From Spirochaetaceae bacterium (GTDB lineage Bacteria; Spirochaetota; Spirochaetia; Treponematales; Breznakiellaceae), in the NCBI GenBank assembly GCA_031290205.1, contig JAITNZ010000177.1, positions 1-39,094 on the forward strand: a DNA stretch of 39,094 bases. The letters are read 5' to 3'. How positions within the stretch are numbered: position 1 is the stretch's first letter; every line of letters begins with the position of its first letter. Both the position numbers and the translations under genes were made by a program. The notes under the pieces were generated by a model that had not been told where the DNA came from, did not search any database, and saw only the letters and a list, made by a program, of their open reading frames with translations. Of the stretch, positions 4,528-31,776 are shown piece after piece.

Positions 4528-4722
4528 CACTCTTCACTACTCATTCACTACTCATTCACTACTCACTCACCACTCACTTACTCACTACTCACTCACTACT
4601 CACTCACTACTCACTTTTCACTCACTCTTCACTCACTCACTCACTACTCACTACTCACTACTCACTACTCACTACTCACTACTCACTACTCACTACTCAC
4701 TCATTCACCACTCACTCCATAA
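4528..4722. repeat. Heptanucleotide-based short tandem repeat tract (TCACTAC units)
   Basis: Long run of TCACTAC/TCATTCAC/ACTCACT units; intergenic. Confidence 0.9.
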
Positions 4723-9060: not shown

Positions 9061-9118
9061 CCCCGTTCTCTTATCAAACGGAAGGCAGAAGTGCCGCAGG
9101 CACCGGCTGTGGCGTCGC
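9061..9118 (-). repeat. Dispersed two-hairpin element (copy near the permease stop)
   Basis: GTGCC-gca-GGCAC hairpin plus CCGTT...AACGG hairpin; shared with 13391-13434 and 16408-16453. Confidence 0.75.
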
Positions 9119-9879
9119 TACCGCTTCTTTGTCCAATACAACACCCGCGTTTTGAGGCGATTGAATCCTAAGGTGATGAGCAGGACGACTAACGACAGCA
9201 CGAACATACCGGCAAGCACGCGGTCGTACTCGGCAAAATCGGCGTAGTACTGCACAAAATAGCCCAAACCTGCCCGCGCGCCGAATATCTCGCCGACGGT
9301 GAGCAGGATGAAACTCATGATAAGCCCTGACTCAATACCTGCAAAAATCTGCGGCATAATTCCCGGCAGGATAATCTTAAAAACAAGTTTCGCGCCTTTC
9401 AGATTAAGGCATCTCGCGTTATCAATCCAGCGCGGCTCAAGGAATATGATGCCGTGTATTGTGCTGCGCAAGACGGGCCAGAAAACGCCAATCATGATGA
9501 TTGATGCCGAAGACAACCAGAATGTCGGAAATATCGCGATGGCATAGGGAATGAGCATTGTCGGAGGTATCGGATTAAGCGCGCTGAAGATGGGCATAAA
9601 AAGCCGTTTCAGTTTTTCGTTAAGCCCCACAACGGCGCCTATGCTCACACCGAGGACGATGGCAAGCAGGAGCGCGGGAAAGAGAAGGCGCATCGAGCTT
9701 AAAAAACCGATAAAAAGCAATTTTCTTGAAGAAATGAGCGCCCGAAATATTTTCCCGAGTCCCGGGAATATCAAAGGGTTGAGCAATTTTCCAATATCGG
9801 TAATGAGCGCGTAGACAAAGAACAAACCGGCAAATATCAGGATAGAGCCTACATACCGGCTTAAACCGCTTTTTTTCAT
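9118..9879 (-). CDS. ABC transporter permease (SsuC/TauC type)
   Basis: BPD_transp_1-type permease; start MKKSGLSRYV at 9879. The longer ORF to 9933 reads through tandem repeats. Confidence 0.88.
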   Translation of the reverse strand: MKKSGLSRYVGSILIFAGLFFVYALITDIGKLLNPLIFPGLGKIFRALISSRKLLFIGFLSSMRLLFPALLLAIVLGVSIGAVVGLNEKLKRLFMPIFSALNPIPPTMLIPYAIAIFPTFWLSSASIIMIGVFWPVLRSTIHGIIFLEPRWIDNARCLNLKGAKLVFKIILPGIMPQIFAGIESGLIMSFILLTVGEIFGARAGLGYFVQYYADFAEYDRVLAGMFVLSLVVLLITLGFNRLKTRVLYWTKKR

Positions 9880-9996
9880 ATTCTCGAACCATCCTCTATA
9901 ATCTTTTTCATATTCTCGAACCGTCCTCCACAATTTTTTTCATATTTTCGAACCATTCTCCATAATCTTTTTCATATTCTCGAACCGTCCTCCACA
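9877..9996 (-). repeat. 32-bp tandem repeat, about 3.75 copies, spanning the ATPase/permease junction
   Basis: CATATTCTCGAACC(A/G)TCCTC(T/C)A(T/C)AATCTTTTT repeats with CAT at exactly 9877, 9909, 9941 and 9973. Confidence 0.97.
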
Positions 9997-10790
9997 ACAA
10001 TCTCATGTTCGATAAGCTCACCAACAAGCACATTCAGTTTGTCCAGCAGGCTGTTACGCAATCCCGCGAAATTCGGATGATGCAGTGAAGAACTGTGCGA
10101 GCGCGGTCTGTCAAGGCTGACCGTTTCCTCGAACACGATGCGTCCGGGCTGTGCGCCCATGACAATTACCCGGTCGCCAAGTATCAGCGCTTCCTCGACA
10201 TCGTGGGTGACAAACAGAATAGTCTTTCCGGTTTCGCCCGAGGTCCCCTGCCACAAATCAAGTAACGCATCCTGCTGCTTCGCACGGGTAATTTCGTCAA
10301 GAGCGCCAAAGGGCTCATCCATGAGGAGTATCGGCGCGTTCTGCGCGAGGGCGCGCGCAATCGCCGTGCGCTGGCGCATACCGCCTGAAAGCTCTCCCGG
10401 AAGTTTCTTCCCCTGCCCCGAAAGCCCGACAAGCTCAAGATACGTCTCCGCTATGTTTTCCCTCTCCGCTTTTGACTCGCCAAGGCAAGCCTGTTCAAGC
10501 GCAAGCACGACATTCTGAAGGCAGGTCATCCAAGGGAAGAGGCTGTAGTCCTGAAAGACAACCGCGCGGTCAAGCCCGGGACCGGAAATTGTTTTATGGT
10601 TGACCGTAATGGAACCCTCGTGCGGAAAGATAAGGCCGGCAAGAAGGCGCAGCATCGTACTCTTGCCGCAGCCGGAGGGTCCGATCACCGAAACAAATTC
10701 GCCTTTGGATATGGAAAGGTTGACATGAAAGAGCACGTCTTCCTTGCCATACCCAAAAACTACATCGTCAATGCTGATATAAGCATTCAT
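9972..10790 (-). CDS. ABC transporter ATP-binding protein (SsuB/TauB type)
   Basis: [39 protein letters not shown]. Confidence 0.93.
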
Positions 10791-10795
10791 CGGGC

Positions 10796-11845
10796 TTAGG
10801 TATTCTGCTCTGCAAAAAGCGTGCTAAGCGTATTCCAGTAAGGGGAAGGCGCTTCTTGTTTAAGCGCTTCCAATGCTTCAACGTAGAGCGAGGTGTCAAT
10901 CAGCGCATAGGGGTCGACCGTTGTAGAAGGATCAAGGTAATCGATCGACTTCATTTGGTTAAACATTTTGACTACCGCGTTGGTATTTGGATCGAGCGAA
11001 TACTCAGCGTGAGGCGAGAACGTGATATCGCGCGCGTTCTGCTCGGTAAAATTCTGCTGTTTGATATTCGCCCGAACCCCCGATTCAGGGTCTTCGACGA
11101 ATTTCCGTTCCGCAAGCAACATTCCTTTCAGAAACGCGACAAGAGCCGCCCGCTTGTCTTTGATCGCGGCTTGGGTCGTAACAATGCGGCAGCAGGGGTG
11201 GCGGGGGAAGAGGTCTGTCGTGTAAAGCGGCGTGGCGAGTCCCGCCTCGCGTATCTGAACCACGAGCCCGTTAGGACCGATGCCCACATCGACCTTCCCG
11301 CTTTTTACCGCTTCGAGCACATCCACTGGCCGCTTGAATTCGATAATCTCAAGGTCGCGTCCCGGTTCAATACCGGCTTCAAAAAGCGCCCCGCGAAATA
11401 CGACGTCGGGGGTATAGAGGCGCGGCGAACCCACAATCTTCCCCTTAAACCCGTATATGTCCTTATACTTGCCCGCATTTTCGGCTTTGGTAAAAATGGG
11501 GTGAGAGCCGGTCTGGTTCCCCGCGATGATAACCAGCTTCGCGCCGTTCACCGCCAGCGCGAGCGGGGCGCTTGTCCCGAAGGATACGCCCACATCGAGT
11601 TTGCCCAATTCGAGCGCGGCGAGTCCGTCGGCGGTATTCGAAAATGATACCAATTCCGCATCCACGCCCGCATCCTTAAAATAGCCTTCCTCGACAGCCA
11701 GCATGGGAAGCGTTGTACTGGAACTCGGCTGAAAGCCCGCCACAATCTTGCCTAAAATTCCGCTCTTTGCCGCATCTTTCTTGCTGCAACCGATAACTGC
11801 AAGCAGAAGCGCCGCAGTCATTAAAAACACAAAAATCTTTTTCAT
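10796..11845 (-). CDS. Lipoprotein substrate-binding protein, NMT1/SsuA-like
   Basis: Leader MKKIFVFLMTAALLLAVIGCSKKDAAKS (lipobox IGC) starting at 11845; type-II SBP sequence; contains HPCCRIV. Confidence 0.88.
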   Translation of the reverse strand: MKKIFVFLMTAALLLAVIGCSKKDAAKSGILGKIVAGFQPSSSTTLPMLAVEEGYFKDAGVDAELVSFSNTADGLAALELGKLDVGVSFGTSAPLALAVNGAKLVIIAGNQTGSHPIFTKAENAGKYKDIYGFKGKIVGSPRLYTPDVVFRGALFEAGIEPGRDLEIIEFKRPVDVLEAVKSGKVDVGIGPNGLVVQIREAGLATPLYTTDLFPRHPCCRIVTTQAAIKDKRAALVAFLKGMLLAERKFVEDPESGVRANIKQQNFTEQNARDITFSPHAEYSLDPNTNAVVKMFNQMKSIDYLDPSTTVDPYALIDTSLYVEALEALKQEAPSPYWNTLSTLFAEQNT

Positions 11846-13033: not shown

Positions 13034-13074
13034 TTTCTCCTATAAATTTTTTTTCATTGCTCATTGCTCATTGC

Positions 13075-13341
13075 TCATTGCTTATTGCTCATTAAATACG
13101 AGACCGTCCCGTCCGGTTCCTTCACCATGCGATACGTTTCTGTAATATTCACTCCGCACTCCGACAGAAAGGCGACAGCTTGTTCGAGTGCCTCCGGCAT
13201 AAACCGCAGACAAAACCCGCATCCCGCTTTAATGCTGGACGGTTTGGGCATAACACGAACGTCCAATTTTCGTTCGAGGAACGCCTGCTCCGCCATAATA
13301 GCTTGGGAGGTGCTTTCAAAACAGATTATCGCTTCATCCAT
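13075..13341 (-). CDS. DUF3343 family putative Se/S carrier protein
   Basis: 88 aa; SIKAGCGFCLRF matches the DUF3343 AGCGxxLR motif; FESTSQAIMAEQAF N-terminus. Confidence 0.82.
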   Translation of the reverse strand: MDEAIICFESTSQAIMAEQAFLERKLDVRVMPKPSSIKAGCGFCLRFMPEALEQAVAFLSECGVNITETYRMVKEPDGTVSYLMSNKQ

Positions 13342-17461: not shown

Positions 17462-17500
17462 TTTTTTTCTCCTTAAAAAAAAATATTAGTTCATTATTCT

Positions 17501-18742
17501 CTATTCTCTATTCTCTGTTCTCTGTTCATTCCTCATTGCTCTCTTCTCCCAGTGATCGGCGATAATCCACAGAGCAAGTAGGAGGAGTAATTGAATGAGC
17601 AGTGCGGGACCAAAACCACCAAACAATTTTGGAAGGTAGATTGCTTTACCTGAACTGAGTAGGGGATTTGGCTTGACAACATTTTGCATAAGCCATGCGC
17701 CGGGTAAAGAGCCTGCGATGAAAAATACAAAGGTTATCATACTTTGAACATAGCCTTCGCCAATGCGGATAAATGTACCGGAGGCACAGCATCCGGCGAT
17801 GGCTGCTCCTATACCGAATAAAAATGAACCGATAGGCAGATGCAAGGCAACATTGCCGCCAGGAATTGTTTCCGGTAATTTTGCAAGGTCGATACCATAG
17901 CGCGCTATATGTATTCCGGTAAACATGATGGTAGAAACGGCAAGCGCGGCAATCAACGCTTTCGTTACTTTAGTGCTGCCTGTAAGAGCGGGGTCGCGCA
18001 TCGCGGCGGTAAAACAAAACCGTGAACGTTGAATCGCATACCCTAAACCTAAACCAACAAAAATAAAAATACCCGCTAACGGCGCTTGAGCTTTGGCAGC
18101 ATAGGCGGCTATAAAACCAAGTACAAGAAGAAGCATTGCTGCGGCGATTTGTATACGCCTGTTCCGTTTATGTTCCGCCTCGCTTAATTTTTTTCGCGGT
18201 GTTCTGCGTTCATGGGATACAGGCGGGATAAACCAGCGCACGAGCATCTTCCCCCCCACTACAGCTCCCGCGACCGCGCATACAAGATAAATCCAGCCGC
18301 TTAAACTGAACTGCGGGATAGAAGAAAACATGGCGCCTATATTACAGGCGGGCGCGATCCTCGTTCCAATGCCCATCAATAAACCGCCAACGACTGCCGC
18401 CCAAACCTGCCTCGTACTTTTAATCATCCTCAGTTTCCATTGCGAGGCGAGCAGACAGGAAATCAGAGCGCCGAAAATAAGCGCGATGTCGGTGATAGAC
18501 CCCTGGTTATTTAGAAAACTATATTTAGACAACTGTCCGTTAAATATTTTCCATGAATCCGCATTTGCGCTGAAGAGGGCAAGCGTTTTACCCCCCCAAA
18601 TAGCAAAGGGACCGACGATTCCCCATGCGCCGCCGAAGGCAGCCATAGAAACCGCGAGGAGCGCCATAATGACCGCGCCTGTCGTATAACTCCATTCGTT
18701 CTTACATAGAATTGCGTAATAGTTTGTTTTATTTTTTTCCAT
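17501..18742 (-). CDS. YeeE/YedE family transporter (putative selenium or thiosulfate uptake)
   Basis: Polytopic; GIGTRIAPACNIGAMF and AGCCASGTFIRIGEGY motifs typical of YeeE/YedE. Confidence 0.88.
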   Translation of the reverse strand: MEKNKTNYYAILCKNEWSYTTGAVIMALLAVSMAAFGGAWGIVGPFAIWGGKTLALFSANADSWKIFNGQLSKYSFLNNQGSITDIALIFGALISCLLASQWKLRMIKSTRQVWAAVVGGLLMGIGTRIAPACNIGAMFSSIPQFSLSGWIYLVCAVAGAVVGGKMLVRWFIPPVSHERRTPRKKLSEAEHKRNRRIQIAAAMLLLVLGFIAAYAAKAQAPLAGIFIFVGLGLGYAIQRSRFCFTAAMRDPALTGSTKVTKALIAALAVSTIMFTGIHIARYGIDLAKLPETIPGGNVALHLPIGSFLFGIGAAIAGCCASGTFIRIGEGYVQSMITFVFFIAGSLPGAWLMQNVVKPNPLLSSGKAIYLPKLFGGFGPALLIQLLLLLALWIIADHWEKRAMRNEQRTENRE

Positions 18743-31613: not shown

Positions 31614-31772
31614 TCCTCACTGTCCACTATCCACTGTCCACTCTTCACTCTTCACTCTTCACTGTCCACTGTCCACTGTCCACTGTCCACTGTCCACTAT
31701 CCACTATCCACTATCCACTATCCACTATCCACTATCCACTATCCACTATCCACTATCCACTATCCACTATCC
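31614..31772. repeat. Heptanucleotide short tandem repeat tract (TCCACTA/TCCACTG units)
   Basis: About 20 consecutive 7-bp units ending 4 bp before the lipoprotein stop at 31777. Confidence 0.95.
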
Positions 31773-31776
31773 ACCC

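Follow-up and report, generated by a model that had tools for sequence, protein, structure and literature searches.

A 32-bp tandem array of ATGA-linked mini-ORFs at an ABC transporter ATPase-permease junction of a spirochete, a candidate stop-restart relay

An array of MIRU repeats at senX3-regX3 was reportedly described by Supply and colleagues in 1997. MIRUs measure roughly 40-100 bp, with lengths of 77 and 53 bp at senX3-regX3; they occupy about 41 loci of M. tuberculosis H37Rv and are apparently mobile (PMC12548453; PMC4213456). Those situated at start codons contain an internal ORF that is coupled to the downstream gene at -4 nt, which likely limits the impact of the insertion (PMC12548453). 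Coupling at simple ATGA junctions is documented as well: four of the five ATGA pairs tested in E. coli were coupled (PMC6728339), and in reporters the last 15 nt of the upstream gene are enough for coupling, of which almost nothing is left across gaps of about 20-38 nt (PMC10666635). For M. tuberculosis fpg1, the length of upstream tandem repeats correlates with transcript level (PMC2734929). In Beggiatoaceae, TAACTGA heptamer repeats upstream of start codons have been proposed as protein-binding sites (PMC4679880).

In this work, we analysed a window (i.e. the whole stretch of 39,094 nucleotides) from a Spirochaetaceae genome assembly of 2.13 Mb in 265 contigs, 66% complete. It carries an ABC transporter operon in which the spacer between the ATPase and permease genes consists of three 32-bp units (9880-9975, minus strand) with four ATGA overlaps; a URO-D family gene lies downstream of this gene pair. 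The features concerned are the following:

10796 to 11845, minus strand: gene of an NMT1/TauA-type substrate-binding protein (PF13379 and PF09084), upstream in the same operon
9972 to 10790, minus strand: ABC transporter ATPase gene (ORF; PF00005, E 9.8e-32), ending in VVEDGSRI and a stop; its last codons (GTGGAGGACGGTTCGAGAATATGA) contain an SD-like GGAGGA together with the first ATGA overlap
9880 to 9975, minus strand: three complete 32-bp tandem units, extra relative to the orthologs (extent according to TRF, 9870-9997)
9944 to 9975, minus strand: unit 1
9912 to 9943, minus strand: unit 2
9880 to 9911, minus strand: unit 3
9940 to 9975, minus strand: mini-ORF 1, with ATGA overlaps at both ends
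9908 to 9943, minus strand: mini-ORF 2, MKKIVEDGSRI and a stop, with ATGA overlaps at both ends
9876 to 9911, minus strand: mini-ORF 3, MKKIIEDGSRI and a stop, its TGA overlapping the permease ATG
9118 to 9879, minus strand: ABC transporter permease gene (PF00528, E 3.7e-16), starting MKKSGLSRYV

The preliminary description had placed CAT triplets exactly at 9877, 9909, 9941 and 9973 and read from them a chain of ATGA-linked 11-codon mini-ORFs; both were recovered exactly, an ATGA standing at each position on the minus strand. Read along that strand, the ATPase gene ends in GTGGAGGACGGTTCGAGAAT-ATGA, three 32-bp units each opening with ATGA follow, and the permease begins with ATGAAAAAAAGCGG. 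Each mini-ORF comprises 11 codons and a stop (36 nt), and since successive mini-ORFs overlap by 4 nt the period is 32 bp. Their peptides are alike (MKKI[MVI]E[DN]GS[RK]I, n=3). The 32-bp tandem repeat claimed in the same description was borne out by TRF (9870-9997; period 32, 3.8 copies, 86% matches), which also fitted the same array with a period of 64 (2.0 copies, 95% matches). Such a repeat is far beyond chance. A permease start at TTG 9933 was rejected, as this extension is open only via the repeat and the orthologs start at or near the ATG matching 9879.

Given a fragmented assembly, an array of this kind might be an artefact. The unit copies are however distinguishable, differing pairwise at 3-5 of 32 sites, by transitions only; the longest exact stretch common to the array copies is 36 nt (by inspection), and the whole array, at less than 130 bp, fits in one ordinary short read. 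As the copies differ and the exact stretch is so short, collapse or invention by the assembler is unlikely, and we regard an artefact as very improbable.

Antisense to the operon, the plus strand of the array has recurring promoter-like hexamer pairs at 9873-9902 and 9937-9966 (4 found, 0.5 expected), which probably arose by coincidence in AT-rich sequence and were multiplied with the repeat. A structured RNA element was rejected: an Rfam search of the array gave no match, and no stable fold was predicted within it (fold z-score -0.45).

In order to trace the origin of the unit, 16 orthologous ATPase-permease junctions were compared (15 from genome contigs and one, L056, from a genome search). 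The array was absent from all 16, each of which has a single stop/start junction: an ATGA overlap in 11 (four of which, L038-L041, are closely related to each other), an 11-nt overlap in two and a gap of 1-2 nt in three. The nearest orthologs of the gene pair belong to Spirochaetaceae MAGs; in the closest one (L032, permease 80% identical), the ATPase ends in ...EQDGSGI-TGA, with an ATGA overlap onto a permease starting MKNIFKN. The unit has the composition of a fused junction: the permease start (ATGAAAAA, MKK) recurs in its 5' part and the ATPase end (GTGGAGGACGGTTCGAGAAT) in its 3' part. When the unit core was searched with up to three mismatches in the whole assembly (66% complete), every match fell inside this array, and a dispersed repeat was thus rejected. 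Since the orthologs lack the array and the unit is confined to this locus, the array reads as the native coupling junction expanded in tandem at this one place. The better fit of the 64-bp than of the 32-bp register suggests at least two steps of growth; we infer that a 32-bp duplication came first and, once its copies had diverged, a 64-bp one. That the three similar peptides form a functional family of 11-residue products is exceedingly improbable: the origin of the unit accounts for their sequence, and the array is without homologs in relatives.

From the same sequence comparisons, which show the anatomy of the array, its local origin and the single-junction state in relatives, we propose the following course of events, in which slippage, ribosome relay and any effect on yield are stated conditionally. 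The native stop/start overlap would couple translation of the two subunits of one complex. Replication slippage, the probable cause, would have duplicated this junction by 32 bp and then by 64 bp, yielding three extra junctions. With a unit length of 2 mod 3, ATGA is re-formed in every copy, and 11 codons of open frame separate one junction from the next. On finishing the ATPase, a ribosome could re-initiate, read 11 codons and do so again, reaching the permease after four termination-reinitiation steps, not one. Successive re-initiation is the natural reading because the native junction has the marks of a conserved coupling site. A plain 96-bp insertion should uncouple the permease, considering how little coupling is left at gaps of about 20-38 nt. 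We hold it rather probable that the array serves as a stop-restart relay keeping the permease coupled across this 96-bp insertion, and that it is mainly a tolerated, coupling-preserving expansion. Supporting this relay, the units join permease start and ATPase end exactly, the 16 orthologous pairs have a single junction and lack the array, the unit is confined to this locus of the assembly, and an anti-SD match precedes all four starts (dG -6.4 to -9.3 kcal/mol, computed with a generic CACCUCCUUU tail; spacers of 7-13 nt). The published reporters and ATGA pairs point the same way (PMC10666635, PMC6728339), as does the abundance of tandem arrays in this genome, one of which, at a gene junction (L096:9438-9544), likewise closes with an ATGA that overlaps the next gene. 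Altered permease yield would be an expected side effect: with a per-step efficiency e, yield would be multiplied by about e^3, i.e. 0.73 at e = 0.9 and 0.13 at e = 0.5, an estimate that would not hold if most permease synthesis began de novo at its own start.

Two points run contrary to the relay. The first is that, with an SD-like sequence of its own at each start, the permease could be initiated de novo and the mini-ORFs stay idle. The second is that the chain is expected from duplication as such. After duplication of an ATGA junction by L = 2 mod 3, the frame opened by one ATG closes at the TGA that follows. When duplications of L = 12-102 were simulated on the reconstructed single junction, an open mini-ORF chain resulted in 1515 of the 1575 cases with L = 2 mod 3 and in 32% of those of any length (31% with the L032 junction). 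The chain is thus no independent surprise, since a duplication of L = 2 mod 3 nearly always makes one; and as about one third of such duplications yield a chain, it is no proof that selection has maintained coupling. The six substitutions separating the units from their consensus were further placed at random as transitions, and the chain stayed intact in 44% of runs, so that the simulation gave no signature of selection on it. The chain is a consequence of the duplication, and that it has lasted is no evidence of selection; selection on the mini-ORFs was rejected on these grounds.

The abundance of tandem arrays in this genome bears on a further reading. In sampled contigs of the source genome (G000; 420 kb), 86 tandem arrays were counted (20.5 per 100 kb), as compared with 8.0 per 100 kb in a congener (188 kb sampled) and 2.8 per 100 kb in three complete family members (400 kb sampled), the source density being about 7 times that of the latter. 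Among arrays with a period of at least 18, 18 of 40 lay within 60 bp of a predicted ORF start, a count uncorrected for array length and intergenic tolerance. The locus might hold a neutral minisatellite, expanded by slippage, in which the mini-ORFs are a by-product with little translation and the permease is initiated de novo at its own SD and start. Such a minisatellite would suit a genome with about 20 arrays in every 100 kb where complete relatives have 2.8, a chain that arises in 32% of random duplications and survives 44% of random-substitution runs, and the SD-like GAGGA preceding the permease start. But an overlap in 13 of the 16 orthologous junctions argues that coupling matters here, and the array spans the very coupling site; we consider a neutral minisatellite possible, if on the unlikely side.

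Several other repeats were noted during this survey. The array at L096:9438-9544 (G000:C55, minus strand) has a 15-bp period and about 7 units, and spans a junction of two genes, the downstream one glycosyltransferase-like. It holds a 33-codon ORF, running from MSIEVMSIKAMTIEV to MTI and a stop, that begins just before the stop of the first gene and whose TGA overlaps the next ATG; by its sequence it is a second coupling-compatible array, with an in-frame period. A DNA search in 60 relatives returned no relative of the glycosyltransferase gene beside it. On the same contig, a 73-bp tandem duplication of the RBS and first codons of triosephosphate isomerase creates an upstream ORF (L096:19518-19666, plus strand), and at L100:976-1250 (G000:C85, plus strand) the start of a gene for a CbiJ-type precorrin-6x reductase carries 4.6 copies of a 60-bp unit, which lengthen the N-terminus in frame, with several possible starts.

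Arrays of period 7 are common in the source genome. At 13054-13093 of the window (minus strand), a heptamer array (GCAATGA) follows an 88-codon ORF ending MSNKQ and a stop; because two heptamers make a 14-nt period, short ATGA-linked ORFs (MSNEQ and a stop) result. Further heptamer arrays lie at 4534-4717, 17495-17527 and 31618-31774 (TCACTAC, TATTCTC and CACTATC types). Other family genomes, G104, G114, G012 and G117 included, contain many 21-bp minisatellites of one period and differing sequences, some of them dispersed over several contigs. A crude pattern survey of 199 family genomes for other ATGA chains gave no clear second case among the matches listed, which were mostly minisatellites and coding repeats.

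The preliminary description had also argued that unit number can change without breaking either gene, which holds by sequence logic, a stop and a restart lying inside every unit. Its interpretation stood in part: re-initiation through successive units is a natural reading, whereas tuning of the ATPase:permease ratio was not upheld, in view of the missing selection signature and the commonness of arrays. An adaptive tuner would require that unit number vary among cells and thereby set this ratio, an extra junction either lowering yield (serial loss) or raising it (additional ribosome-binding sites). It would draw on the harmless gain and loss of units, the at least two growth steps implied by the 64-bp register and the fpg1 precedent of upstream repeat length correlating with transcript level (PMC2734929). 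Against it, the array comes from a single genome, the simulation bears no sign of selection, and the ATPase and permease of such transporters are expected in equal numbers. Neutral expansion explains the array equally well, since there is no selection signature and tandem arrays are very common here, and we judge tuning improbable. The broader notion that a fast-changing relay copy number sets a two-subunit ratio without frame damage, as a coupling-preserving counterpart of phase variation, would likewise be rather unlikely; it would include the idea that this genome repeatedly alters expression through tandem amplification of start or junction regions.

The relay is a plausible reading, and local expansion in a repeat-rich genome, tolerated because coupling is preserved, offers the most economical account. 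The array shows that a translationally coupled operon can accommodate a repeat with a length not divisible by three and stay unbroken, because an ATGA duplication of L = 2 mod 3 restores coupling in every copy. Provided that the relay works, there would be a natural series of 0-3 extra junctions with which to measure how efficient each re-initiation step is.

Compared with known systems, the locus shares with ATGA termination-reinitiation pairs (PMC6728339, PMC10666635) the 4-nt overlap between genes for subunits of one complex, here an ABC ATPase and its permease, and 11 of the 16 orthologs have this overlap too; those pairs have one overlap, whereas four consecutive ones with 11-codon ORFs between them occur here. 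Like the fpg1 repeats, the array lies between neighbouring genes where relatives have few bases and may affect expression; the effect at fpg1 is however on transcript level, and the accessible part of the source describes no mini-ORF chain (PMC2734929). TAACTGA repeats are likewise short, tandem and immediately upstream of start codons, and contain stop codons, but form a dispersed family of fixed sequence. MIRU is the closest known system and a precise precedent, sharing tandem units at a gene junction, a small ORF per unit and a 4-nt overlap downstream, here in the form of four ATGA overlaps and three 11-codon ORFs. The array departs from MIRUs in dispersal (all matches with up to three mismatches lie within it, in an assembly 66% complete), in length (32 bp against about 40-100 bp) and in host, MIRUs being mycobacterial and the nearest orthologs here belonging to Spirochaetaceae MAGs. 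By dispersal, size and taxon it does not count as a MIRU, yet by analogy it would work like one. A MIRU is an apparently mobile repeat, whereas the spirochete array derives from the junction itself; if the relay works, a MIRU-like architecture would have arisen by local duplication and not from a mobile repeat.
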